From: Roseovarius amoyensis
Lineage (GTDB): Bacteria; Pseudomonadota; Alphaproteobacteria; Rhodobacterales; Rhodobacteraceae
Assembly (NCBI RefSeq): GCF_003260265.1
Contig: NZ_QITQ01000005.1
Location: 62,001 to 126,000 of the forward strand
DNA length: 64,000 nucleotides
Direction of reading: 5' to 3'
Part shown: positions 48,085 through 61,909 of the stretch, one piece after another
Position numbering within the stretch: position 1 is the first letter of the stretch
How the letters are laid out: every line of letters starts with the position of its first letter
The notes under the pieces: generated by a model
What the model saw: only the letters and a program-made list of their open reading frames with translations
Databases searched by the model: none
What the model was told of the DNA's origin: nothing
Made by a program: the position numbers and the translations under genes

Positions 48085-48681
48085 ATGACCCATGCCCTGA
48101 TCGTGATCGACATGCAGAACGATTTCTGCCCCGGCGGTGCGCTGGCCGTGGCCGGCGGGGACGAGATCGTTACCGGCATCAATGCCCTGATGGGCGATTT
48201 CGATGCGGTGATCCTGACCCAGGACTGGCACCCGGCGGGGCATTCCTCGTTTGCGTCCTCGCACCCCGGCAAGGCCCCGTTCGAGACGGTCGAGATGGCC
48301 TATGGCACACAGGTACTGTGGCCCGATCACTGCGTGCAGGGCAGCGCCGGCGCGGCGTTTCACGACGCGCTGGACGCCACGCGCGCCGACCTGATCCTGC
48401 GCAAGGGCATGAACCCGGCGATCGACAGTTATTCGGCGTTTTTCGAAAATGACCACGAAACCCCCACAGGCCTGCACGGTTATCTGCAGACCCGTGGCAT
48501 CGACCGCCTGACGATGGTCGGGCTGGCGACCGACTTCTGCGTCAACTTCTCGGCCGTGGATGCGGCAAGGCTGGGCTATGCGGTGACGGTGAACGAGGCG
48601 CTGTGCCGCGCCATCGACCTGGACGGATCATTGGCGGCGGCGCGAAAGGGGATGGCAGATGCGGGGGTCACGGTGGCCTGA
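48085..48681 (+). CDS. pncA: Nicotinamidase
   Basis: The 198-residue hydrolase converts nicotinamide to nicotinate in NAD salvage. It has the catalytic Asp in IVIDMQNDFCPGGAL, metal ligands in LTQDWHPAGHSSF, the catalytic Lys in LRKGMNPAIDSYSAF and the nucleophilic Cys in LATDFCVNFSA. GGAGG precedes the ATG. It is the first gene of a tight run with a uracil-DNA glycosylase and SseB. Its product, nicotinate, is of interest given the 6-hydroxynicotinate-reductase-like gene 9 kb downstream. Confidence 0.96.
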   Translation: MTHALIVIDMQNDFCPGGALAVAGGDEIVTGINALMGDFDAVILTQDWHPAGHSSFASSHPGKAPFETVEMAYGTQVLWPDHCVQGSAGAAFHDALDATRADLILRKGMNPAIDSYSAFFENDHETPTGLHGYLQTRGIDRLTMVGLATDFCVNFSAVDAARLGYAVTVNEALCRAIDLDGSLAAARKGMADAGVTVA

Positions 48682-50260: not shown

Positions 50261-51187
50261 ATGGAACTGGGTCCGTATATCCTTTTAGCCTCGATCGAAG
50301 GCGCGGTGATGGCGGCGGTGCTCGCGCTGACGGCGGTGGGGCTCAGCCTCGTCTTCGGGGTGATGCGGGTGGTCAACATCGCGCATGGCGAATTCTTCAT
50401 GCTGGGCGCGGTTATTGCCTGGTATGTGGCGCAGACCGTGGGCGGGCATCCGGCCATCGGGTTCGTCGCGGCACTGGTCATCGCGCCGCTGGTGGTGGGG
50501 GCGATCGCGGCGGCGGCCGACATGACCATCCTCAAGCGCATCGCCTATGATCCAGAGCGCACCATCGTCGCCACCATCGGGCTGCTCTACATCATCCAGC
50601 AATTGACGCTGATGACCTATGGCCCCGACGCGCGCCCGGTGGAGGCGCCCTTTAACCAGCGCATCGCGCTGCCGTGGGTGGAATGGGGCGAGGACGGGCT
50701 GTCGTTCTTCCATCCCTGGGGGCTGGCCACCACCAGCTACAAGCTGTTCGTGATCGTGGCGGCGGCGGTGGTCCTGACCGGGGTGCGCATGATGATGACG
50801 CGCACCCGCATCGGCCTGCTGATGCGCGCCACCCAGGCCGACAGCGACATGGCGCTGGCCTTTGGCATCCCGGTGGAACGGGTCTATGCGATGGTATTCG
50901 GCATCGGCGCCGGGCTGGCGGCGCTCGCGGCGGTGCTGATCGTGCCAATCAGCCAGGCGCATTACCTGATGGGGGCCGATCCGCTGCTGTTGTCCTTTAT
51001 CGTCGTCATCATCGGCGGCCTCGGCAGCCTGCCGGGCACGGTGGTTGCGGCGGTTCTGATCGGGCTGTCGGACGGGATCATATCGGTCTTCTTCTCGCCC
51101 ACCCTGGCCAAGATCCTGGCGACGCTGCTGGTCGGGCTGGTGCTGGTGTTCCGCCCGCAGGGCCTGTTCGGGACCCGCGCCCCATGA
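50261..51187 (+). CDS. Branched-chain amino-acid-type ABC permease (LivH family)
   Basis: The 308-residue protein has eight hydrophobic helices and LivH signatures: AVGLSLVFGVMRVVNIAHGE near residue 28, RTIVATIGLLYIIQQL near 93 and a coupling helix in MRATQADSDMALAFGIPVERV. It forms one half of the channel. The ATG at 50261 is used; a TTG three codons upstream is possible. Liv-type importers take amino acids, ureides or aromatic acids. Here it opens a ten-gene run ending in N-heterocycle-type enzymes, so a heterocyclic substrate is likely. Confidence 0.93.
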   Translation: MELGPYILLASIEGAVMAAVLALTAVGLSLVFGVMRVVNIAHGEFFMLGAVIAWYVAQTVGGHPAIGFVAALVIAPLVVGAIAAAADMTILKRIAYDPERTIVATIGLLYIIQQLTLMTYGPDARPVEAPFNQRIALPWVEWGEDGLSFFHPWGLATTSYKLFVIVAAAVVLTGVRMMMTRTRIGLLMRATQADSDMALAFGIPVERVYAMVFGIGAGLAALAAVLIVPISQAHYLMGADPLLLSFIVVIIGGLGSLPGTVVAAVLIGLSDGIISVFFSPTLAKILATLLVGLVLVFRPQGLFGTRAP

Positions 51188-52128
51188 ACGGGTGGGTGCG
51201 CGTGCTGGCGCTGCATGGCGGGCTGTTGGCGGTACTGTTCGCGGCGCAGTTCCTGCTGCCGGCCTATCACCACGGCAACCTGGCGCGGATCATGGTGCTG
51301 GCCAGCTATGCCATCGGCTATAACATCCTGTTCGGCTATACCGGGTTGCTCAGCCTCGGGCATGCGCTGTTCTTTGCCGCCGGGATGTACGGCATGGGGC
51401 TGGGGGTGCAGCACCTTGGCCTGACGCCCGCACCGGCGCTGCTGGCCGGGATCGCGGCGGGCGCGGTGGTGGCGCTGGCGCTGGGGCTGCTGGCGCTCAG
51501 GACCGTCGGTGTCGCCTTCATGATCGTGACACTGATGTTCGCGCAGGCGGGCTATTTCACCATCCTCTATTTCAGCGAGATCACGCGCGGCGACGAAGGC
51601 TTTGTCATCGCCCAGGCGCAGCGGGTGCTGTGGGGGATCGACCTGAGCGCATCGGCGAACCGTTATTTCGCTGCCTGGGCGCTCTTTTCGGCCTGCCTGC
51701 TGGCCTGCCTGTGGCTGGTGCGCATGCCATTCGGCAAGACGCTGGTGGCGATCCGCGAGAACGAGGAACGCGTGCGCATGCTGGGCTATGACACCTTCGC
51801 GCACAAGCTGGGGGCGATGGTGATTTCGGGCGCCATCTCCGCCGCGGCGGGGGCGTCCTATGGTCTGCTCTTCGGCAGTGCCGGGGCCAGTTTCGCCGGG
51901 GTTCAGTATTCGATCCTGCCGCTGTTGTGGGTGCTGCTGGGCGGGGCCGGCACCGTGCTGGGGCCGTTCGTCGGCACGCTGTTCATGTTCTACCTGATCG
52001 ACCTGAGTTCGGGCATCACCACCGCCTACATGCTGATCGCGGGGGTGGTCCTGGTGGTGCTGACGCTCTTTGCGCCGCAGGGCCTGATGGGCGAGCTGCG
52101 CCGCAGGTTCTGGCGGGGGTTGCCATGA
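51184..52128 (+). CDS. Branched-chain amino-acid-type ABC permease (LivM family)
   Basis: The 314-residue protein has LivM features: ASYAIGYNILFGYTGLLSLG near residue 38, FFAAGMYGMGLG, and the coupling loop AIRENEERVRMLGYDTFAHK. About nine membrane helices are predicted. It overlaps LivH and LivG neighbours by 4 nt each. It is the second channel subunit. Confidence 0.93.
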   Translation: MNGWVRVLALHGGLLAVLFAAQFLLPAYHHGNLARIMVLASYAIGYNILFGYTGLLSLGHALFFAAGMYGMGLGVQHLGLTPAPALLAGIAAGAVVALALGLLALRTVGVAFMIVTLMFAQAGYFTILYFSEITRGDEGFVIAQAQRVLWGIDLSASANRYFAAWALFSACLLACLWLVRMPFGKTLVAIRENEERVRMLGYDTFAHKLGAMVISGAISAAAGASYGLLFGSAGASFAGVQYSILPLLWVLLGGAGTVLGPFVGTLFMFYLIDLSSGITTAYMLIAGVVLVVLTLFAPQGLMGELRRRFWRGLP

Positions 52129-52832
52129 CGCTGTTGTCGACACGCGGGCTGTCAAAGCACTTTGACGGGCTGCAGGCCGTCGACGGGGTCGATTTCGACC
52201 TGCCGGAGGGCGAAGTGCGCGCGCTGATCGGCCCCAACGGCGCGGGCAAGACGACATTCGTGGGCATGATCTGCGGCCGCATCGCGCCCAGCTCTGGCAG
52301 CGTGGTCTTTGACGGTGCCGACATCACCGCGCTGCCCGCGCACAAGCGCATCCTGCGCGGCATGGCCTATACGTTTCAGATCACCTCGGTCTTTCCCCGG
52401 CTCGACGTGGCCGAAAACGTGGCGCTGGCGGCCCGCCGGCGGCTGAAGGGGCGCGAGATGACGCGCGCGGTCGATGAGGTGCTGGCGCGGGTGGGCCTGC
52501 TGGAGCGCAGGGACGAGGAGGCGGGCAACCTCAGCTATGGTCATCAGCGGCTGCTGGAAATCGCCATGGGGCTTGTGCAAAAGCCCAGGCTGCTGATCCT
52601 TGACGAACCCACGCAGGGTTTGTCCGAGGGCGAGATCGCCAGCTTCAAGGAACTGCTGCGAGAGGTCGCCGGCCAGACCACCATCCTGCTGATCGAGCAC
52701 AACATGAGCGTGGTGATGGAAACCGCCGACCGGGTCAGCGTGCTGGATTTCGGCCGCCTGCTGGCCGAGGGCACGCCGCAGGAGATCCACGAAAACGCCG
52801 CCGTGCAGGCGGCCTATCTGGGGACGGGATGA
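52125..52832 (+). CDS. ABC ATPase, LivG family
   Basis: The 235-residue ATPase has Walker A GPNGAGKTTF, a Q-loop in YTFQITSVFPRLDVAEN, signature LSYGHQRLLEIAM and Walker B LLILDEPTQGLS. The LSYGHQR form and SVFPRLDVAEN stretch are LivG-like. It overlaps LivM and LivF genes and energises the importer together with LivF. Confidence 0.94.
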   Translation: MTLLSTRGLSKHFDGLQAVDGVDFDLPEGEVRALIGPNGAGKTTFVGMICGRIAPSSGSVVFDGADITALPAHKRILRGMAYTFQITSVFPRLDVAENVALAARRRLKGREMTRAVDEVLARVGLLERRDEEAGNLSYGHQRLLEIAMGLVQKPRLLILDEPTQGLSEGEIASFKELLREVAGQTTILLIEHNMSVVMETADRVSVLDFGRLLAEGTPQEIHENAAVQAAYLGTG

Positions 52833-53527
52833 TGCTGGAACTGCAGGCGATCAGCGCCGGTTACGGCCGTGCCCAGGTGCTGCGGGAACTGTCGCTGACG
52901 GTGGCCTCGGGCGAGATCCTGTGCCTGCTGGGCCGCAACGGCGCTGGCAAGACCACGACGATGCAGGCGATCATGGGGCTGTTGCCGCTGATGGGGGGGC
53001 AGGTCCTGCTGGATGGTGTGCCGATCAGCGGACGCCCCGCGCATGAGGTGCCCAAGGCGGGCATCGGGTACATCCCGCAGGGGCGGCGGCTGTTTGCCGG
53101 GCTGACGGTGGCCGAGCACTTGGAAATCGGGCTGCGGGCACGCGATGCGGGACCCGAGGTGCGCGACGAGGTGCTGGCGCTCTTTCCTCGTCTGGGCGAA
53201 CGGCTGGACCAGCGGGCGGAAACGCTGTCAGGGGGCGAGCAGCAGATGCTGGCCACTGCCCGCGCGCTGTGCCTGCGGCCCAAGGCGCTGTTGCTGGACG
53301 AGCCGACCGAGGGGCTGCAACCCTCGATGATCGAGGCCATCCGCCAGGTGATCGTCAAGATGCGTGCGGCTGGCGTGGCGATCTTGCTGGTGGAACAGCG
53401 GGTCGATGCGGTGCTGTCGGTGGCCGACCGGGTGGCGTTCATCGAAAACGGTCGCGGCGGCGAGGTGATGCCGGCCGAACGCCTGCGCCAGGATCACGGC
53501 ATCGTCGAACGCTACGTGGGCGTCTGA
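52829..53527 (+). CDS. ABC ATPase, LivF family
   Basis: The 232-residue ATPase has Walker A GRNGAGKTTT, the LivF hallmark IGYIPQGRRLFAGLTVAEHL, signature LSGGEQQMLATARALC and Walker B LLLDEPTEGLQPSMI. An ATG pair (52829, 52832) gives two possible starts. It ends the transporter part; a 94-nt gap with a promoter-like -35 separates it from the oxidoreductase genes. Confidence 0.94.
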   Translation: MMLELQAISAGYGRAQVLRELSLTVASGEILCLLGRNGAGKTTTMQAIMGLLPLMGGQVLLDGVPISGRPAHEVPKAGIGYIPQGRRLFAGLTVAEHLEIGLRARDAGPEVRDEVLALFPRLGERLDQRAETLSGGEQQMLATARALCLRPKALLLDEPTEGLQPSMIEAIRQVIVKMRAAGVAILLVEQRVDAVLSVADRVAFIENGRGGEVMPAERLRQDHGIVERYVGV

Positions 53528-53544
53528 TCGCGGCGCGCCGCCCG

Positions 53545-53573
53545 TTGACAGGGCGCAGACGCTGCCGCACCAT
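53545..53573 (+). promoter_or_regulatory. Possible internal promoter before the molybdenum hydroxylase genes
   Basis: A perfect TTGACA, a 17-nt spacer and CACCAT (3 of 6 to the -10 consensus) lie in the gap after the LivF gene. It could give the catabolic genes separate transcription from the importer. Confidence 0.3.
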
Positions 53574-53621
53574 CTCCCTGACCGGCTTGCCGGGATAACT
53601 ACAACAACAGGGGGATCGCCA

Positions 53622-54473
53622 TTGGCCGCATATCATCGGCCCGAAACCCTGGAGGCGGCGCTTGACTTGCTGGCGGCGGCGCCGGTGACCATTGCCGCCG
53701 GCTGTACCGACCTTTTCGCCGCGACCCCGGCAAGGGCTCTGCCGGGCGAGGTGCTGGATATCACGGGGATTGCCGAGCTGCGCGGGATCGGACGCACCGA
53801 CACCGGCCTGCGGATCGGCGCCGCGATGACGTGGTCTGACGTGGTGCGTGCCGACCTGCCGCCCGCCTTCGACATGCTGAAACAGGCCGCGCGCGAGGTG
53901 GGATCGGTGCAGATCCAGAACGCCGGGACGATGGCCGGAAACATCTGCAACGCCTCACCCGCCGCCGATGGAATGCCCTGCCTGCTGGCGCTCGATGCCG
54001 AGGTTGAACTGGCCTCAAGCGCGGGCCGGCGCCGGATGCCTCTGGCGGATTTCGTCACCGGCCCGCGCAAGACCGCGCTGGGCAAGGGCGAGATGGTGAT
54101 CGCGGTGCATGTGCCTGACGCGGCGACGCGCGGGCAGTCGCGGTTTGAAAAGCTCGGGGCGCGGAAATATTTGGTGATCTCCATCGCCATGGTGGCCGCG
54201 CGGCTGGAACTGGACGGCGAAACGGTTGAACGCGCGTCCATCGCCGTGGGGTCCTGCGGGCCGGTGGCGGTGCGGCTTGGCGCGCTCGAGGTGGCGCTGA
54301 CCGGCGCGCCGCTGGCAGGGCTTGGCGCGCGGGTCACGCCGGAGTTGGTGGCGCGGCACCTGTCGCCCATTGACGACATTCGCGCCGATGGCGGCTATCG
54401 CGCGCAGGCGGCGACGGAGCTGGTGCGCCGCGTGCTGGACAGCCTTGCCGGCGGATGCGAGGCGGCGGCATGA
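53622..54473 (+). CDS. Molybdenum hydroxylase FAD-binding subunit (CoxM/XdhB-like)
   Basis: The 283-residue protein has the PCMH-type FAD sites: TIAAGCTDLFAATPA near residue 24 and QIQNAGTMAGNICNASPAAD near residue 98. The CO-dehydrogenase-type C-terminal domain follows from about residue 175. It passes electrons from the 2Fe-2S centres to FAD. The start is TTG, with GGGGGATCG upstream and the family start AAYHRPETLEAAL right after it. It overlaps the fused subunit gene by 4 nt. Confidence 0.9.
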   Translation: MAAYHRPETLEAALDLLAAAPVTIAAGCTDLFAATPARALPGEVLDITGIAELRGIGRTDTGLRIGAAMTWSDVVRADLPPAFDMLKQAAREVGSVQIQNAGTMAGNICNASPAADGMPCLLALDAEVELASSAGRRRMPLADFVTGPRKTALGKGEMVIAVHVPDAATRGQSRFEKLGARKYLVISIAMVAARLELDGETVERASIAVGSCGPVAVRLGALEVALTGAPLAGLGARVTPELVARHLSPIDDIRADGGYRAQAATELVRRVLDSLAGGCEAAA

Positions 54474-57157
54474 ACAGGGGCTTTGATTCATTCGCGCTGA
54501 GCGTCAACGGCGACCCCGTTCGCGTGCCGGCCGAGCCCGGTCGCCGGTTGTCGGAGGTGCTGCGCGAACGGCTGGGCCTGTTCGGCACCAAGGTGGGCTG
54601 CGACGCCGGCGATTGCGGCGCCTGCACGGTGCTGGTCGATGGCGCGCCGGTCTGTGCCTGCCTGACGCCGCTGGCGCAGGTTGCGGGGCGCGCGGTGACG
54701 ACGGTCGAGGGGTTGGATGACAGCCCGCTGCAACGCGCCTTTCTGCGCCGCGGGGCGGCGCAATGCGGCATCTGCACGCCGGGGATGCTGATGGCGGCAA
54801 CGGCGCTGTTGCGCGACACCCCTGCGCCGGACCGGGAACAGGTCGAGGCGGCGCTGGGCGGGGTGCTGTGCCGCTGCACCGGCTATGCCAAGATCGTCGA
54901 GGCGGTGCTGGACACCGCGCCGGGGGCGGGGCCCGGCCTGCCCGACGCGGGCGCGGCCGTGGGCGCGCGGGTCGAGCGTCTGGATGGCGGCCCCAAGGTG
55001 GCCGGGAGCGAGGTTTACGGTGCCGACGCCTGCCCCGAGGGGCTGCTGCTGGTGCGCGCGGTGCGGGCGCCATACGCACCAGTATTGTTCAGTTTCGGTG
55101 ATATCCATGCATTTGCCGCGCATCACGGTGTCGAGGTCTTTACCGCCGCTGACATTCCCGGTGTGAACGCCTTTGGCACCATCCCCGCCTTTGCCGACCA
55201 GCCGGCGCTGGCCGAACGCCACGCCCGGATGCGGGGCGAGGCGGTGGCGCTGGTCGCGGGTGATCCGGCGGTGATCGAGGCGCTCGATCTCGAGACCTTT
55301 CCGGTGACGTGGCAGACGGGAGACGATGCGGCGCTGGTGCATGACACGCGTCCCGACAACACGCTGATCACCGGGCTGGTGCGCCGGGGCGATGCCGAGG
55401 CGGCGCTGGCGGGGGCGGTGCATGTGGCCGCGGCCGGGATGGAAACCCCCTATGTCGAGCACGCCTATATAGAGCCGGAGGCCGGCATCGCCTGGATGGA
55501 GGGCGACACGCTGGTCATCCAGGCTTGCACCCAGGCGCCGGTGATGGACCGCGACGACATCGCACGTGTTCTCGGGCTGGCGCCGGAAAAGGTGCGCATC
55601 GTGCCCTCGGCCGCCGGAGGCGGTTTCGGCTCCAAGCTCGACCTTTCGGTGCAGCCGCTGATCGGGCTGGTGGCGCTGAAAACCGGGCGACCGGCACGGA
55701 TGATCCTCAGCCGTGCCGAATCGATGATGTCGACGACCAAGCGCCACCCGGCGCGCATGAGCGCGCGCATCGGGGCGGATGCGGATGGGCGCATTGCCGG
55801 TTTCGTCTTCGATGGCGAATTCAACACCGGCGCCTATGCCAGCTGGGGGCCGACGGTGGCCGGGCGGGTGCCGGTTCACGCCTCGGGCCCCTATCATACG
55901 CCGGCCTACCTGGCCCGGTCGCGCGCCTATCACAGCTACGAGCCGGTTTCGGGCGCCTTTCGTGGCTTTGGCGTGCCGCAGGCGGCGATCTTGCAGGAGA
56001 CGCTGTATGATGAGCTGGCGGACAAGGCGGGGATCGACCGGCTGGAATTTCGCCGTCTCAACGCGCTGCGCGACGGTCAGGCCACGGTTTGCGGGCAGGT
56101 GCTGCAGGGCGTGGGCATATCCGCCTGTCTGGATGCGTTGCAGGGGCCGTGGCGGGCGGCGCTGGAACGGGCCGAGGCCCGGAACGCGCGTGGCGGGTGC
56201 ATCCGCCATGGCGTCGGGGTTGCGTCGTGCTGGTATGGCTGTGGCAATACCGGGCTGCCCAACCCCTCGACCGTGCGCGCCGGGATCACCGCTGACGGCG
56301 CGCTGCGCCTGCATCAGGGCGCGACCGATATCGGCCAAGGGTCGAACACAGTCATTTCGCAGATATTCGCCGATGCGGTGGGGCTGCCGCTGTCGCACTT
56401 GCGGCTGATCGGGCCCGACACCGCGCTGACGCCCGACTGCGGCAAGACCTCGGCCTCGCGCCAGACCTATGTCACCGGCAAGGCGGCGCTGCTGGCGGGG
56501 CAGGCGCTGCGCGCGCGCATATTGATGCTGACCAACACGGGCGAGGATGCACGATTGTCGCTGGATGGTGGCGTGCTGAGCGCGACGGACGGGCGCGGCA
56601 GCCGCCGGATCACGCTGTCGGAGATGCCGGCGGATGCGAACGGCTATGTTTTGGCGGCAGAGGAAACCTATGACCCGCCGACCGTGCCGCTGGACGAGAA
56701 CGGGCAGGGTGCGCCCTATGCCGTCTACGGGTTCGGCGCGCAGATGGCCGAGGTGGCGGTGGATTGCACGCTGGGCACGGTCCGGGTGACGCGGATCACC
56801 GCCGCGCATGACCTGGGGCGGGTGATCAACCCGCTGCTGGCCGAGGGGCAGGTCGAGGGTGGCATCGCGCAGGGGCTGGGCATGGCGCTGATGGAGGAAT
56901 ACGTGCCCGGCCGCACCGAGAACCTGCACGACTACCTGATCCCCACCACCGGCGACATGCCCGAGATCGAGACGATATTCGTCGAGGTGCCCGACCCCGA
57001 GGGCCCGCTGGGCGCCAAGGGGCTGGGCGAGCATGTGCTGATCCCGACCGCGCCGGCGATCCTGAACGCGATCCGGCACGCCACGGGTGCCCGCATCACC
57101 CGGCTGCCGGCGCTGCCGCACCGGGTACTGGCGGCGATGGCGGAGGCGTGGAAATGA
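54470..57157 (+). CDS. Fused 2Fe-2S and molybdopterin subunit of a xanthine-dehydrogenase-family hydroxylase
   Basis: The 895-residue protein joins two subunits. Residues 1-150 carry both 2Fe-2S sites: C44, C49, C52, C64 (plant type) and C99, C102, C134, C136. Residues from about 160 form the molybdopterin domain, with AAGGGFGSKLDL, GAFRGFGVPQA as in xanthine dehydrogenases (not the CODH cysteine loop) and the catalytic Glu in AKGLGEHVLIP. Such enzymes hydroxylate N-heterocycles next to nitrogen, using water. The substrate cannot be read. A short A/T-richer, rare-codon patch lies at 55066-55112. It is coupled to both neighbours. Confidence 0.92.
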   Translation: MNRGFDSFALSVNGDPVRVPAEPGRRLSEVLRERLGLFGTKVGCDAGDCGACTVLVDGAPVCACLTPLAQVAGRAVTTVEGLDDSPLQRAFLRRGAAQCGICTPGMLMAATALLRDTPAPDREQVEAALGGVLCRCTGYAKIVEAVLDTAPGAGPGLPDAGAAVGARVERLDGGPKVAGSEVYGADACPEGLLLVRAVRAPYAPVLFSFGDIHAFAAHHGVEVFTAADIPGVNAFGTIPAFADQPALAERHARMRGEAVALVAGDPAVIEALDLETFPVTWQTGDDAALVHDTRPDNTLITGLVRRGDAEAALAGAVHVAAAGMETPYVEHAYIEPEAGIAWMEGDTLVIQACTQAPVMDRDDIARVLGLAPEKVRIVPSAAGGGFGSKLDLSVQPLIGLVALKTGRPARMILSRAESMMSTTKRHPARMSARIGADADGRIAGFVFDGEFNTGAYASWGPTVAGRVPVHASGPYHTPAYLARSRAYHSYEPVSGAFRGFGVPQAAILQETLYDELADKAGIDRLEFRRLNALRDGQATVCGQVLQGVGISACLDALQGPWRAALERAEARNARGGCIRHGVGVASCWYGCGNTGLPNPSTVRAGITADGALRLHQGATDIGQGSNTVISQIFADAVGLPLSHLRLIGPDTALTPDCGKTSASRQTYVTGKAALLAGQALRARILMLTNTGEDARLSLDGGVLSATDGRGSRRITLSEMPADANGYVLAAEETYDPPTVPLDENGQGAPYAVYGFGAQMAEVAVDCTLGTVRVTRITAAHDLGRVINPLLAEGQVEGGIAQGLGMALMEEYVPGRTENLHDYLIPTTGDMPEIETIFVEVPDPEGPLGAKGLGEHVLIPTAPAILNAIRHATGARITRLPALPHRVLAAMAEAWK

Positions 57158-58626
57158 CAGAAAAGCGGCGCGTGAAAGAGGAAAAGATCCGCTGCGACGC
57201 CTGCCCGGTGATGTGCTACATCGCCGATGGCAAGGTAGGCGCCTGCGACCGCTACGCCAACCGTGGCGGCAAGATCGTGCGTTGCGATCCGCTGACCATC
57301 CTTGACCGCACGTTGGAGGCCGGAGGCGAGGTTCGCCCCTTCCTGGCCCGCGACTGGGACGGACGGATGCTGGAGGGCGACGACCTGTTCGTTTCCGGCG
57401 TGGGGGCGGGCACCACCTATCCCGACTACAAGCCCGCGCCGTTCATCGTCAGCCGGGACGTGGAAGGCGCCGATTTCATCACCGTGGTGACCGAGGCGAT
57501 CTTTTCCTATTGCGGCGTCAAGGTGAAGATCGACACCGACCGCCACCTGGGCGCCGAGGCCGCCACCGTGCGCTGCGCGGGCGAACCGGTCGGCCATGTC
57601 ACCACCGCGGAATACGGCAGCCAGATGCTGTCGCTGGGCGGGGTGGCGCATTTGACCGGCGGCAGCAAGGCCGAGGGGCGGGTGACCTGCGATGCCCTGC
57701 TGAGGCTGTGCAACCGCGAGGCGGTGGAACTGACCATCGACGACGGCGCCAGCGTGGTGGTTCAGGCGGGGCAGCCCCCGATCGTCGATGGTCACCGCGA
57801 GGAACGGATGCGGGTTGGCTGCGGGTCGGCCACCATCGGGATGTTTGCCTCGCAATGGCACGGGCTGGTGGACGAGGTGGTCGTGGTCGACGATCACATC
57901 ACCGGCGTCGTCAGCGAACACCAGGCGGGTAAGGTGCTGGGATGGCCCGATACCGGCATCCGCATTCGTGGCCGGCGCTCCACGCCCGGGCGCTATTTCC
58001 AGGTGGCGCAGCCGGGTCGGGGCTGGGGCGGCACCGACATTGAGGACCCGCTGACCATTCTTGACCCCTGGCAGGAACGGAAGGGCGCGCGCCCCGGTCT
58101 GACGTTGCTGATGGTGTCGACCACGGGTGAGCAATACGCCTATTATGTGCTGGACGATGATCTGCGCCCGCAAGAGGCCCCCCTGCCCGAGGCGCTGAAA
58201 CCCTCGGTGGATCTCATTGCCGAGAACTGCGAACCGGCGCTGTGCACGGTGATGTTCCAGGCCGGGGCGGGTGGCTCGTTACGCTCTGGCGTCACGAAAA
58301 ACCCGGTGCGGCTGACGCAATCGGTGCATGCACTCAGAACGCGGGTGACTTGCGGCGGCGTGCCTACCTATGTCTGGCCGGGCGGTGGCATCACGCTGTT
58401 GGTGGATGTCTCGAAGATGCCGCAGGGGTCGTTCGGTTATGTGCCCACCCCGGCGCTGGTGGCGCCGCTTGAATTCACCTTGTCGCGCGAGGATTACACC
58501 GCGCTGGGCGGGCATGGCGAACAGGTGCGCAGCGTTGCCGACGTGCTGGAAAAGGGCGGCGAATACGGCGCCGAGCTGCGCGCGGTGGGCGACACCCGCC
58601 CTGCTGGCGGGGTGCAGGGGGCATGA
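57154..58626 (+). CDS. 6-hydroxynicotinate reductase-like Fe-S protein
   Basis: The 490-residue protein starts with a ferredoxin-like cluster RCDACPVMCYIADGKVGACD (C14, C17, C21, C31), likely a 4Fe-4S site. It continues with glycine-rich segments such as FVSGVGAGTTYPDYKP and TAEYGSQMLSLGGVAHLTGG that I associate with 6-hydroxynicotinate reductase. That enzyme reduces the 6-oxo pyridine ring to a tetrahydro product with reduced ferredoxin. Coupling to the molybdenum hydroxylase supports a hydroxylate-then-reduce route. The ATG overlaps the upstream stop. The exact ring system is not known. Confidence 0.8.
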   Translation: MTEKRRVKEEKIRCDACPVMCYIADGKVGACDRYANRGGKIVRCDPLTILDRTLEAGGEVRPFLARDWDGRMLEGDDLFVSGVGAGTTYPDYKPAPFIVSRDVEGADFITVVTEAIFSYCGVKVKIDTDRHLGAEAATVRCAGEPVGHVTTAEYGSQMLSLGGVAHLTGGSKAEGRVTCDALLRLCNREAVELTIDDGASVVVQAGQPPIVDGHREERMRVGCGSATIGMFASQWHGLVDEVVVVDDHITGVVSEHQAGKVLGWPDTGIRIRGRRSTPGRYFQVAQPGRGWGGTDIEDPLTILDPWQERKGARPGLTLLMVSTTGEQYAYYVLDDDLRPQEAPLPEALKPSVDLIAENCEPALCTVMFQAGAGGSLRSGVTKNPVRLTQSVHALRTRVTCGGVPTYVWPGGGITLLVDVSKMPQGSFGYVPTPALVAPLEFTLSREDYTALGGHGEQVRSVADVLEKGGEYGAELRAVGDTRPAGGVQGA

Positions 58627-59471
58627 GCGGCCAGGCACAGGCGGCGTGGCTGCCCGACGGGCGGCGGCTGCACCTGCATCACGGCCCCATAGACATGATC
58701 GTTGACGCCACCGGGCCGGGACGCGCGGCGGCGCTGGAACGGGCGGTGGCGCGCTTCGACACCCTGCTGGATGAGCTGGTGGCCGAGCTGCCGCGCTTGC
58801 GCGCGCCGACCGGCCCCGAGTCGAAGGGAGAGACCGCGAAACGCATGGTTGCGGCGGTCGCCCCCTTTGCCCCCGTTTTCGTCACGCCGATGGCGGCGGT
58901 GGCCGGGGCCGGGGCGGAAACCGTTCTGGCGGCGGTTTGCGACGGGCCGGGGGTGGACAAGGCCCATGTCAACAACGGCGGTGACGTTGCCTTTCATCTT
59001 GGTTCGGGACAACAGATGAGGGCGGCCATTGCCGCGCCTGGCGCCGGGACGATCCGTATCCAATCTGATGACCCCGTGCGCGGGGTGGCGACATCGGGGC
59101 GCGGCGGGCGCAGCCTGTCGCTGGGCATCGCAGACAGCGTGACCGTGCTGGCGCGCGGCGCGGCGCTGGCCGATGCGGCGGCGACGCTGATCGCCAATGC
59201 CGTCGATCTGCCGGGTCATCCCGCCATTACCCGCACTCCGGCCTGCGAAATCTCGCCCGACAGTGACATGGGCGAACGCCTTGTGACCGTCGACGTGGGG
59301 CCGCTGACGCGGGCCGAGGTCGAGACGGCGCTGGATGCCGGGCTGGCGCTGGCCGAGAACTGGCGCCGTCGCGGGTTGATCTGCGGCGCATGGCTGACCC
59401 TTGGCGGCCTTTGGCGGGCAACCGGCGCGCTGGCCTTATCTCAACAAAAGAAAGATCCTGTTCATGCCTGA
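58623..59471 (+). CDS. UPF0280 family protein (ApbE-like fold)
   Basis: The 282-residue protein matches UPF0280: an N-terminal HHGPIDMIVDATGPGRAAAL, then MVAAVAPFAPVFVTPMAAVA, KAHVNNGGDVAFHL and a long glycine/alanine region GVATSGRGGRSLSLGIADSV. The HVNNGGDVAFHL and ATSG segments recall ApbE flavin transferases. In cofactor terms it might attach or insert a flavin or act on the redox partner of its neighbours; that is inference. It is translationally coupled on both sides. Confidence 0.8.
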   Translation: MSGQAQAAWLPDGRRLHLHHGPIDMIVDATGPGRAAALERAVARFDTLLDELVAELPRLRAPTGPESKGETAKRMVAAVAPFAPVFVTPMAAVAGAGAETVLAAVCDGPGVDKAHVNNGGDVAFHLGSGQQMRAAIAAPGAGTIRIQSDDPVRGVATSGRGGRSLSLGIADSVTVLARGAALADAAATLIANAVDLPGHPAITRTPACEISPDSDMGERLVTVDVGPLTRAEVETALDAGLALAENWRRRGLICGAWLTLGGLWRATGALALSQQKKDPVHA

Positions 59472-60045
59472 GTTTCCCCTGCGCAAGACCGCGCTTTTCA
59501 TCGAGGATATCCACCATGACGGCGGCCCCGCGCCCAAGATGCCGCGCCGGCGCGCGGCCATAGCGGCGCTGGTCGGCAACCCGTTTGCCGGCGGCTATAC
59601 GGCCGAGTTGCAGCCGGCGATGGAGGATTTGAAGCCGCTGGGCCTGATGCTGACCGACCGGCTGGTCGAGGCGATGGGCGGGATAGAGGGCATCGACGGG
59701 TACGGCAAGGCGGCGATGGCCGGCGAGGCGGGCGAGCTGGAACACACCGCGCTGTGGCATGTGCCCGGCGGCTATGCCATGCGCGCCCGGCTGGGCGAGG
59801 CCCGCGCGATTGTGCCCTCGGCGATGAAACAGGGCGGCCCCGGCACCCGCATCGACGTGCCGCTCGGGCATATCAACGCCGCCTATGTGCGCAGCCATTT
59901 CGACGCGATGGAGGTGGGGCTGCCCGATGGCCCGCGCGCCAATGAGCTGCTGTTCGTCCTGGCGATGAGCCGCGGCGGCCGCATCCATGACCGCATGGGC
60001 GGGCTGAGCGTGGACGAGGTCAAGGGCGAGGACGGGCTGAGATAG
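59464..60045 (+). CDS. DUF1185 (amino acid synthesis family) protein
   Basis: The 193-residue protein has the PF06684 (AA_synth/DUF1185) features: FPLRKTALFIEDIHHDGG near the start, ALVGNPFAGGYTAELQPAME near 35, GELEHTALWHVPGGYAMR near 90, and DVPLGHINAAYVRSHFD near 135. Structures of this family show a chorismate-mutase-like fold and its chemistry is unproven. As the last gene of the run it may process the reduced ring product. The ATG overlaps the UPF0280 stop by 8 nt. Confidence 0.82.
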   Translation: MPEFPLRKTALFIEDIHHDGGPAPKMPRRRAAIAALVGNPFAGGYTAELQPAMEDLKPLGLMLTDRLVEAMGGIEGIDGYGKAAMAGEAGELEHTALWHVPGGYAMRARLGEARAIVPSAMKQGGPGTRIDVPLGHINAAYVRSHFDAMEVGLPDGPRANELLFVLAMSRGGRIHDRMGGLSVDEVKGEDGLR

Positions 60046-60124: not shown

Positions 60125-61909
60125 ATGACCGACACAGCCAAGCCAAAACGCCAGCCGCTCTTTTCCGGACAGGACCGCGCCAACCTGCGCTGGCTGTGGC
60201 GCCGATACCTGAAAAAGCGCGCGGGCTGGCTGGCGCTGGCGCTGGGCATGATCCTGGTGCAGGGGGTGATCTATCAGCAGTTTCTGTCGATGACCGAAAG
60301 CGGCTTGCGGGTGATCTTTGACAGCGGCGCGATGAGCGACCTGGTGCTGGTCTGCGCGGTGGTGTTCGGCCTTTTTGCCGTGCGCGGGGCGATGTCCTAT
60401 CTGGTGCCGCTGATCACGGTGCGGATTTCCAACGCGGCCGTCAGCGAGATGCGCCGCGACCTGATCGAGCACATGATGTCGCTCGACCTGGCCTATTTCG
60501 AGCGCACCAAGTCCGGCGAGATCATTCACCGGCTGGTCACGCAGACCCAGCAACTGGGCGTTTTCTTTGGCCTGGCCACGGCAGGTGCGGTGCGCGATGC
60601 GGTGACGGTGGTGATCGTGTCGGGCTACCTGATCTGGAAAAACCCGTTACTGTTCACCGCAGCGGTTGTGGTGCTGCCCTTCATCATCTGGGTGATGAAT
60701 TATGTCTCGGACCGGGTGAAGCACGGCCAGCGGCAGGCAGAGAGCGCGCTGGGCGACTACATGACCAATATCGAGGAAACGGTCAGCGGCATGCGCACCG
60801 TCAAGATCGCCAGCCAGGAACGGATGGAGGAAAGCCGCCTGATGCAGGGCACCAGCGCCATTCGCGGGCTGATGACGCGGGTGCAGTCCACCCAGGCGCT
60901 GGTGATGCCGTCGATCGACCTCAGCTCGGCCTTTGTCTATGTGCTGGTCATCGGCGGTGGCGGCTACATGGTGCTGAGCCCCGATTTCGACGTCGATGGT
61001 GCCGGCATCATCACCTTCCTGCTGGGCATGGTGATGGTCTTCGACCCGGCCCGCCTGCTGGCGCAGTTCTTCGGGTCGCTTCAGACGAACATGGTGCTGC
61101 TTGACCGGGTGCGCAGCCTTTACGATGAACAGCCCACGATCAAGGACGCGCCCGATGCGATAGAGGCGTTCGACACCAGGGGCGACATCGTGCTTGAGGA
61201 TGTGCGCTTTTCCTACAGCGACGAACAGCCGCTCTTCGACGGGCTCAGCATGACGTTTCGCGGCGGGCAGGTGTCGGCCATCGTCGGCGCCACCGGATCG
61301 GGCAAGACCACGATCCTTTCGTTGCTGACGCGGCTTTACGACGTCAAGGGCGGGCGGATCACCATCGGCGGCGTGCCGGTCGAGCGGCTGAAGGTCGCGG
61401 CGCTGCGCGGGGCGTTCTCGGTGGTGGCGCAGGACATCGTGATCTTCAACGCCTCGATCCTGGACAACATCCGATATGTGCGCCCCGACGCCAGCGAAGA
61501 AGAGGTCTGGCGCGCCGCCGAGGATGCCGAAATCGCGGCGCTGATCCGCCAGCGGGGGGATGCGCCCGTGGGGCCCAAGGGCGCGCAGCTTTCGGGCGGG
61601 CAGAAACAGCGCATCGCCATCGCTCGTGCCTTTCTGCGCGACGCGCCAATCCTGCTGCTGGACGAAGCGACAAGCGCGCTGGACCAGGCAACAGAGGAAC
61701 GCATCCGCGCGGCCTTGTCGCGCCTGACCAAGGGGAAAACGACCATCGTCGTCGCGCACCGGCTGTCATCGGTGGCCGATGCCGACCGGATTTTCGTGCT
61801 GGAATCCGGGCGACTGGTCGAAGAGGGGCGCCATGCCGACCTGCTCGATCATGGTGGGCTTTATGCCCAGCTCTATCAGGCGCAGAAAAAGGGGTATGAC
61901 GGGCGCTGA
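60125..61909 (+). CDS. MsbA-like ABC exporter (fused membrane and ATPase domains)
   Basis: The 594-residue half-transporter has six membrane helices (about 35-330) and a C-terminal ATPase. The Walker A motif is GATGSGKTT, the signature LSGGQKQRIAIARAFL, Walker B ILLLDEATSALD and the H-loop AHRLS. The segment EMRRDLIEHMMSLDLAYFER is an exporter coupling helix. Homologues export lipids, polysaccharide precursors or drugs. It acts as a homodimer. Substrate is not predictable. Confidence 0.93.
   Translation: MTDTAKPKRQPLFSGQDRANLRWLWRRYLKKRAGWLALALGMILVQGVIYQQFLSMTESGLRVIFDSGAMSDLVLVCAVVFGLFAVRGAMSYLVPLITVRISNAAVSEMRRDLIEHMMSLDLAYFERTKSGEIIHRLVTQTQQLGVFFGLATAGAVRDAVTVVIVSGYLIWKNPLLFTAAVVVLPFIIWVMNYVSDRVKHGQRQAESALGDYMTNIEETVSGMRTVKIASQERMEESRLMQGTSAIRGLMTRVQSTQALVMPSIDLSSAFVYVLVIGGGGYMVLSPDFDVDGAGIITFLLGMVMVFDPARLLAQFFGSLQTNMVLLDRVRSLYDEQPTIKDAPDAIEAFDTRGDIVLEDVRFSYSDEQPLFDGLSMTFRGGQVSAIVGATGSGKTTILSLLTRLYDVKGGRITIGGVPVERLKVAALRGAFSVVAQDIVIFNASILDNIRYVRPDASEEEVWRAAEDAEIAALIRQRGDAPVGPKGAQLSGGQKQRIAIARAFLRDAPILLLDEATSALDQATEERIRAALSRLTKGKTTIVVAHRLSSVADADRIFVLESGRLVEEGRHADLLDHGGLYAQLYQAQKKGYDGR

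Follow-up and report, generated by a model that had tools for sequence, protein, structure and literature searches.

A nicotinate-type uptake and ring-reduction cluster of Roseovarius amoyensis in which HyuAB may stand in for enamidase

A 64,000-nucleotide (nt) stretch of Roseovarius amoyensis DNA (contig NZ_QITQ01000005.1, positions 62,001 to 126,000; hereafter the window) carries at 50261-60045 nine genes for a branched-chain-type importer, a molybdenum (Mo) hydroxylase, the ring reductase Hnr (6-hydroxynicotinate reductase), a UPF0280 protein and a DUF1185 protein. The locus raises the question of which ring compound these proteins act on, and of how that ring is opened once it has been reduced. 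We consider it quite probable, from comparisons of sequences and gene neighbourhoods, that the window encodes uptake and the upper part of an aerobic reductive nicotinate pathway, with the enzyme pair HyuA/HyuB (HyuAB) likely replacing enamidase. The cluster type is already known as a published reductive nicotinate module. What may be new are the HyuAB variant, the complete pairing of Hnr with UPF0280 in the Alphaproteobacteria, and the division of DUF1185 into one clade on the Hnr side and another mostly on the enamidase side, none of which was found among the matches listed in open-access literature.

No ring-opening hydrolase lies within the window cluster, a point absent from an earlier note on this DNA, which also overlooked the third known enzyme of the pathway, enamidase. 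An enamidase marker from a sister cluster, identified by its match to the enamidase of PDB entry 2vun (E 1.5e-111), found nothing in the R. amoyensis genome at E 1e-5. Encoded elsewhere in that genome, on contig 6 (L183, 9968-13758), is a hyuA/hyuB pair that lies 0.7 kilobases (kb) after hutG and hutU. The domains of its products are PF01968, PF05378 and PF02538; HyuA scores 293.9 bits against PF01968 (gathering score 22.9) and HyuB 521.6 bits against PF02538 (gathering score 26.8). Their best NCBIfam models are the alpha and beta subunits of caprolactamase, at 488.4 bits for CapA and, with full HyuB, 293.9 bits for CapB, both short of the equivalog cut-off of 1000. The related OplAB hydrolyses delta-valerolactam using ATP, according to the accessible text of its description (PMC11033972). 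In R. amoyensis, HyuAB probably stands in for enamidase.

A class-wide survey of 387 alphaproteobacterial genomes, 77 with Hnr and 310 without, sets the two openers against each other. The same enamidase query found a match in 34 of the 77 Hnr genomes at E 1e-30, and in 32 at 71% identity or more, the query's own genome included. With hyuA called at 55% identity or more to the R. amoyensis copy, the 77 genomes divide into 32 with enamidase, 44 with hyuA (that copy counted), none with both and one with neither (Fisher p 7e-21, kinship ignored), and the best listed hyuA match in any enamidase genome reached 49%. On a tree of Hnr (75 sequences, two partial ones omitted and one row unlabelled), the enamidase or HyuAB label changes nine times, at least four of these changes being forced by starred branches, against an average of 23.9 for shuffled labels. 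Even sisters differ in their opener (G373 with HyuAB; G245 and G165 with enamidase), and the HyuAB genome G088 groups with three enamidase genomes of its own family (G178, G254 and G319). Such repeated exchange on one Hnr backbone fits two openers for the same pathway and one shared substrate.

Plasmids carry both types of cluster. One stretch of a Neorhizobium plasmid holds genes annotated as nicB (nicotinate dehydrogenase) and fpr, together with livKHMGF, marR, hnr, UPF0280, two DUF1185 genes, hyuA and hyuB; plasmids of Fuscovulum and Pleomorphomonas hold hnr, UPF0280, DUF1185 and hyuAB, and those of Comamonadaceae and Sulfitobacter an enamidase at 70-71% identity together with a ferredoxin-NADP reductase. 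It is plausible, on these sequence relationships, that HyuAB opens the reduced nicotinate ring in place of enamidase, and more than half of the surveyed relatives with the cluster seem to open it by this different, probably ATP-driven enzyme. The exclusive split leads us to predict a new reaction in a large enzyme family whose annotation is poor; neither HyuAB nor oxoprolinase was found in connection with nicotinate breakdown among the matches listed in open-access literature, which does not prove that no such report exists.

Nicotinate is very probably the substrate, because enamidase, nicotinamidase, NicB and a BpsR-like regulator occur in sister clusters. The earlier note had proposed an uptake, Mo-hydroxylase and ring-reductase catabolic module for a pyridine- or pyrimidine-like compound; the module is supported, and the pyridine half of the alternative is favoured by these sister-cluster genes and by the accessible part of PMC3511419, while no support was found for a pyrimidine. 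Nicotinate had been named in the earlier note as one candidate on account of a nearby nicotinamidase gene (pncA). The candidate holds up, but the gene, 1.6 kb upstream, is by itself weak evidence in this genome, being separated from the cluster by other genes. Genes sharing 50% identity or more with it are located within about 10 kb of hnr in 33 of the 80 nearest relatives (the best 80 of at least 592), in many cases between livF and the gene for the flavin adenine dinucleotide (FAD) subunit of the hydroxylase. The same is seen in just 3 of 77 hnr loci sampled class-wide, the window included and some loci being cut by contig ends, and the association is lineage-bound.

A MarR-type gene lies near hnr in 45 of the 77 sampled loci. 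The nearest PDB entry to one representative (L069) is 2nnn at 105 bits, followed by BpsR (6pcp and 6pco, 83 and 82 bits), with the next at 46. BpsR is a Bordetella repressor that, in the available text of its report, was solved with 6-hydroxynicotinate (PMC6837509). The spacing of Y, R and H, three of the four BpsR contacts to this compound, is kept in 77 of 100 cluster MarR proteins, of which only H is informative because the search pattern already required Y and R. As regards uptake, there is no substrate-binding protein beside the window permeases, which the earlier note had likewise not mentioned. A livK-type gene (PF13458) on contig 44 of the same genome (L182, 12246-13532) shares 76% identity with the livK that precedes livH in a Maritimibacter cluster, and around it no other transporter gene was recognised in the stretch inspected.

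Hnr is the one gene product of the cluster whose name is not backed by Pfam and NCBIfam models, none of which scored above cut-off. Its identity to genes on 26 PLSDB plasmid records (H1-H26), mainly of Sulfitobacter and rhizobia, is 61-73%; in 17 of these records the gene is annotated as 6-hydroxynicotinate reductase, and this identity and annotation point to the same function in the window. Its conserved cysteines, C16-x2-C19-x3-C23-x9-C33 in P0001 numbering, would suit a 4Fe-4S cluster. Present in 77 of the 387 genomes, about one fifth, and in 18 of 199 genomes of a phylum sample (one of them outside the Alphaproteobacteria), Hnr marks a widespread candidate route for the breakdown of vitamin B3. 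In one genome (G023, contig 1, 2969814-2971219), hnr is read as two pieces that overlap but differ in frame, owing to a frameshift or to an assembly error. A first structure model was poor, with a predicted local distance difference test score (pLDDT) of 61.8; a second, made with AlphaFold2 from 86 sequences, reached 79.6 and gave no Foldseek match at E 0.001. Further structure comparison found residues ~122-209 weakly similar to glycine-cleavage T-protein barrels (best Z 3.8), for which the Pfam model GCV_T_C gave E 0.0017, under its cut-off. A PDB sequence search with an Hnr profile returned nothing credible (best E 0.27). The lack of a significant Foldseek match with a predicted structure does not demonstrate a new fold.

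We take the Hnr reaction to be ferredoxin-dependent. A ferredoxin-NADP reductase gene lies near hnr in 17 of the 80 nearest and 3 of the 77 sampled loci, its NCBIfam score being below cut-off, and genes for a 2-oxoacid:ferredoxin oxidoreductase (korA/korB) in 8 of the 77 (L013, L015, L016, L036, L039, L047, L060 and L062). Either enzyme beside hnr suits a ferredoxin-dependent reductase in aerobes, for which the korA/korB products are a likely electron source.

The constant partner of Hnr is UPF0280, which scores 347.6 bits against NF003322 (cut-off 290) and was found in 77 of the 387 genomes, precisely the 77 with Hnr; in the other 310 there was no match at E 1e-8 (Fisher p ~3e-83 for the co-occurrence, treating genomes as independent, which they are not). 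The proposal of the earlier note that UPF0280 belongs to the module is borne out by this distribution. The gene lies downstream of hnr on the same strand in 76 of the 77 genomes, among them G330, where it is 1.6 kb downstream, and G072, where only a fragment is on the hnr contig and the remainder on a second one; in the 77th (G194), a contig break parts the two genes, with hnr cut off at the edge of one contig and UPF0280 at the start of another. A solved relative is 2o34 (E 4e-7). Against the ApbE flavin transferase model PF02424, UPF0280 reaches 17.3 bits over 63 residues only, below the required 25.6. We infer that it is either a maturation factor for a cofactor of Hnr or an Hnr subunit.

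COG2122 of Desulfovibrio and methanogens is likely the same family, although the name UPF0280 does not occur in the available text of the paper (PMC5764234). There, the Desulfovibrio protein is required for homocysteine formation, and its homology to ApbE, according to the authors, apparently stops short of the flavin-binding region. In that same text (PMC5764234), COG2122 is genetically required in those organisms along with DUF39 and NIL/ferredoxin proteins, whereas the UPF0280 protein of the window goes with Hnr. Since UPF0280/COG2122 accompanies both, homology between Hnr and the DUF39 protein was considered. The strict pairing with Hnr offers a clean system for learning what UPF0280 does.

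DUF1185 (214.4 bits against PF06684, gathering score 27; PDB relatives 3byq and 2qtp) is a looser companion. To the question raised by the earlier note, whether UPF0280 and DUF1185 always accompany the reductase, the survey answers yes in the case of UPF0280 but not in that of DUF1185, which occurs in 94 of the 387 genomes, namely 67 of the 77 with Hnr and 27 without. In a quick tree of 74 sequences, the DUF1185 proteins of these clusters form two clades. Clade A (44 rows, the window copy included) lies just downstream of hnr in clusters of both opener types, with the sole exception of L012, which sits on a long branch and upstream of hnr. Of the 30 rows of clade B, 28 come from enamidase genomes, one from G088, where HyuAB seems to have taken the place of enamidase, and one from G349, where it may have been lost to assembly gaps. 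The Neorhizobium plasmid (L189) combines hyuAB with a second DUF1185 that is nearest to clade B; the other four plasmid clusters fit. With G088 and this plasmid as exceptions, the rule that clade B occurs only with enamidase was relaxed, and clade B looks like a frequent but not strict companion of enamidase-type amidohydrolases.

As to function, two crystal structures of the family are described in the accessible part of PMC2954203, where branched-chain-type transporter genes adjoin SPO0826 of S. pomeroyi and are read as belonging to amino-acid metabolism. The DUF1185-type TgnF of the trigonelline operon is cited as stimulating TgnE-dependent oxidation of succinate semialdehyde, an effect that the authors could not show for HcdD of the 7-hydroxycoumarin operon (PMC7913881, available text). 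Both are DUF1185-type proteins, as is the window protein, and both sit in degradation operons (PMC7913881, same text). DUF1185 thereby gains a testable context, one clade going with Hnr and one mostly with enamidase, and the stimulatory effect cited for TgnF is the only one of its kind that was found cited.

The FAD and 2Fe-2S/Mo subunits form a probable nicotinate 6-hydroxylase, judged by family and subunit composition, while the closest solved structures are mixed. The PDB relatives of the FAD subunit are xanthine dehydrogenase 1jro (101.5 bits), carbon monoxide dehydrogenase 1ffv (94.2) and nicotinate dehydrogenase 3hrd_C (90.5). Chains A, B and D of 3hrd jointly span the Mo subunit (205 + 217 + 122 bits); as a single chain, aldehyde oxidoreductase 1dgj scores best (368 bits), and chains A and C of 4-hydroxybenzoyl-CoA reductase 1rm6 give 284 + 137 bits. 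Among the module parts followed across genomes with the reductase, UPF0280 proved constant and the hydroxylase did not: 68 of the 77 sampled loci (some cut by contig ends) have the FAD/Mo type near hnr, and this type hence is not universal. On the Comamonadaceae plasmid (L186, 23658-27912) and in L009, it is replaced by another nicotinate-dehydrogenase-like pair, consisting of a 2Fe-2S subunit and a Mo subunit of 1267 residues that contains three CxxCH motifs; a gene of this kind was seen in 1 of the 77 sampled loci. Three SAR116 loci (L118, L120 and L121) have an additional, distant Mo-hydroxylase (39-43% identity) behind transporter genes, and 14 of the 77 sampled loci a Rieske/VanA-type oxygenase gene (representative L023; for example L043, L053, L059, L063 and L070).

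Several observations weigh against nicotinate as the substrate and HyuAB as the ring opener. The hyuAB pair of R. amoyensis is at least ~90 kb from the cluster (contig 55), and so unlinked to hnr; placed after hutU, it could open another lactam. The 55% threshold for hyuA was set after the data had been seen, at a gap that runs in the Hnr genomes from 55% to 49%, and the search scored three candidates per genome only. At that threshold hyuA also occurs in 6 of the 310 genomes without Hnr, two of 80 hand-picked genomes that lack Hnr (G067 and G340) have enamidase at 68% or more, and G349, an Hnr genome in 770 contigs, has neither opener. Within about 10 kb of hnr, hyuA was found in 26 of 44 genomes and enamidase in 20 of 32, some loci being contig-cut. 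Furthermore, a BpsR-like regulator gave no match in the R. amoyensis genome, with one relative's copy as query and no positive control, and the hydroxylase subunits are not nearest to nicotinate dehydrogenase alone, as 1dgj and xanthine dehydrogenase score higher. As a separate observation, G067 carries enamidase (74%) and DUF1185 without Hnr or UPF0280, and its genus relatives G165 and G245 have all four.

That HyuAB and enamidase are unrelated enzymes, that clade B of DUF1185 is mostly missing where enamidase is missing, and that the R. amoyensis hyuAB is sited, unlinked, after hut genes would all suit clusters of the HyuAB type that use another N-heterocycle, for instance another pyridine carboxylate, with HyuAB belonging to that pathway. 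We regard this as unlikely, given that the two opener labels interleave on the Hnr tree, even among sisters, that 15 of the 80 nearest loci have pncA as well as hyuA near hnr, and that annotated nicB accompanies hnr and hyuAB on the Neorhizobium plasmid.

HyuAB could also be a bystander, ring opening in the absence of enamidase being spontaneous or due to an unrecognised hydrolase such as DUF1185. DUF1185 genes do lie beside enamidase-like amidohydrolases in genomes with and without Hnr: of 34 enamidases, 16 have one at a distance of 1.5 kb or less, as do 9 of 17 enamidase-like genes that are less closely related. The distribution of hyuA, present in 44 of the 45 Hnr genomes without enamidase, in none of the 32 with it and in 6 of the 310 others, makes this very unlikely, and DUF1185 is missing altogether from ten Hnr genomes, every one of them a HyuAB genome, which rules out DUF1185 as a general ring opener or general replacement. 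In four genomes without Hnr (G049, G170, G259 and G386), DUF1185 sits beside distant enamidase-like amidohydrolases, and other enamide- or lactam-opening pathways may share this pair. Finally, although Mo-hydroxylases and branched-chain-type transporters are families of broad substrate range, a pyrimidine or an unknown N-heterocycle is most improbable as the substrate of the module, as no pyrimidine-pathway gene was recognised among the inspected representatives of part of the recurring neighbour families, in contrast to enamidase, nicotinamidase, NicB-like enzymes and a BpsR-like regulator, all of which were encountered.

The genes of the cluster (Table 1) all lie on the plus strand with intact frames and without internal stops, and their coordinates confirm the arrangement described in the earlier note, nine named genes in a row that overlap apart from one gap. 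They form two tight runs, livHMGF and then the FAD subunit, Mo subunit, hnr, UPF0280 and DUF1185 genes, with 4-nt overlaps between neighbours, except for UPF0280 and DUF1185, which share 8 nt. The same order was seen again in many genomes. In near relatives, too, livHMGF stands upstream of the FAD gene, with livH identity of up to 89%, and in many of them the slot of the gap holds a divergent marR, a pncA gene or both. DUF1185 is followed, 79 nt further on, by an ABC exporter-type gene (60125-61909); in Roseovarius L078 and L100 it begins at most ~170 nt after DUF1185, in L079 it is 1.2 kb further, and in L082 it is inverted.

Table 1. Features of the nicotinate-type cluster and its surroundings in the window
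Feature	Coordinates	Strand	Basis or remark
pncA, nicotinamidase	48085..48681	+	NF008623 above cut-off; two genes between pncA and operon
livH-type permease, uptake ABC transporter	50261..51187	+	PF02653 (BPD_transp_2), 5.9e-34
livM-type permease	51184..52128	+	PF02653, 9.5e-39; 4-nt overlap with livH
livG-type ATPase	52125..52832	+	PF00005 (ABC_tran), PF12399
livF-type ATPase	52829..53527	+	PF00005 (ABC_tran)
Single gap, 94 nt, livF to FAD subunit	53528..53621	n/a	
FAD subunit, molybdenum hydroxylase	53622..54473	+	TTG start; PF00941 (FAD_binding_5), PF03450 (CO_deh_flav_C)
Fused 2Fe-2S and molybdopterin subunit	54470..57157	+	PF00111, PF01799 (Fer2/Fer2_2), PF02738, PF20256 (MoCoBD_1/2)
hnr, putative 6-hydroxynicotinate reductase	57154..58626	+	Plasmid-gene identity, conserved cysteines
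UPF0280 / COG2122, ApbE superfamily	58623..59471	+	NF003322
DUF1185 (PF06684, AA_synth), clade A	59464..60045	+	PF06684, 1e-63

Taken together, the proposed pathway would begin with the import of nicotinate or nicotinamide by LivHMGF, for which the orphan LivK encoded elsewhere is the likely binding protein, and PncA, by its family function, would convert nicotinamide to nicotinate. The FAD and 2Fe-2S/Mo enzyme, judged by its family and neighbours, would hydroxylate nicotinate to 6-hydroxynicotinate. Hnr would then reduce the ring to 1,4,5,6-tetrahydro-6-oxonicotinate with electrons from reduced ferredoxin, probably supplied via fpr or a 2-oxoacid:ferredoxin oxidoreductase. UPF0280, which co-occurs with Hnr throughout, would act as cofactor maturation factor or subunit, and the ring lactam would be opened by the caprolactamase-like HyuA/HyuB from another contig, a reaction suggested by the mutual exclusion with enamidase. 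DUF1185 would be accessory, clade A mostly following UPF0280 and clade B mostly going with enamidase.

One may go further, albeit tentatively and with considerable doubt that all parts hold jointly, and see the HyuAB branch as a distinct, energy-spending reductive nicotinate route. Here, HyuAB would split the six-membered lactam with ATP, possibly after over-reduction to 6-oxopiperidine-3-carboxylate; HyuAB and enamidase would have been swapped several times, mostly with gain or loss of DUF1185 clade B; and UPF0280 would be a dedicated cofactor-installer or Hnr subunit, a role of the same kind as in the homocysteine system with DUF39.

Among known systems, the available text of PMC3511419 describes the reduction of 6-hydroxynicotinate to 1,4,5,6-tetrahydro-6-oxonicotinate for Eubacterium barkeri and Azorhizobium, and the E. 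barkeri pathway there shares this step to tetrahydro-6-oxonicotinate with the route proposed here. E. barkeri is an anaerobe, however, its hydroxylase (3hrd) has four separate chains whereas the 2Fe-2S and Mo parts of the window enzyme are fused, and its ring opening by enamidase (structure 2vun) differs from that proposed for the window genome. CapAB and OplAB belong, by the accessible text of their descriptions, to the same HyuA/HyuB family as the R. amoyensis pair (PMC8453981, PMC6061476, PMC11033972), which is not the same enzyme as CapAB, with 488 and 294 bits against the cut-off of 1000. The nearest comparison is a closely similar cluster published in 2012 as a nicotinate cluster (PMC3511419, available text). 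According to the same text, Bradyrhizobiaceae SG-6C degrades nicotinate and 6-hydroxynicotinate, and its cluster, shared with Azorhizobium caulinodans, Bradyrhizobium USDA110 and Rhodopseudomonas HaA2, is of the same type as that of the window. The SG-6C-type cluster holds, in that text, the first three steps, and so presumably enamidase, whereas the R. amoyensis genome has no enamidase match and carries hyuAB elsewhere (PMC3511419). We infer that the two unnamed proteins of the SG-6C-type cluster are UPF0280 and DUF1185.

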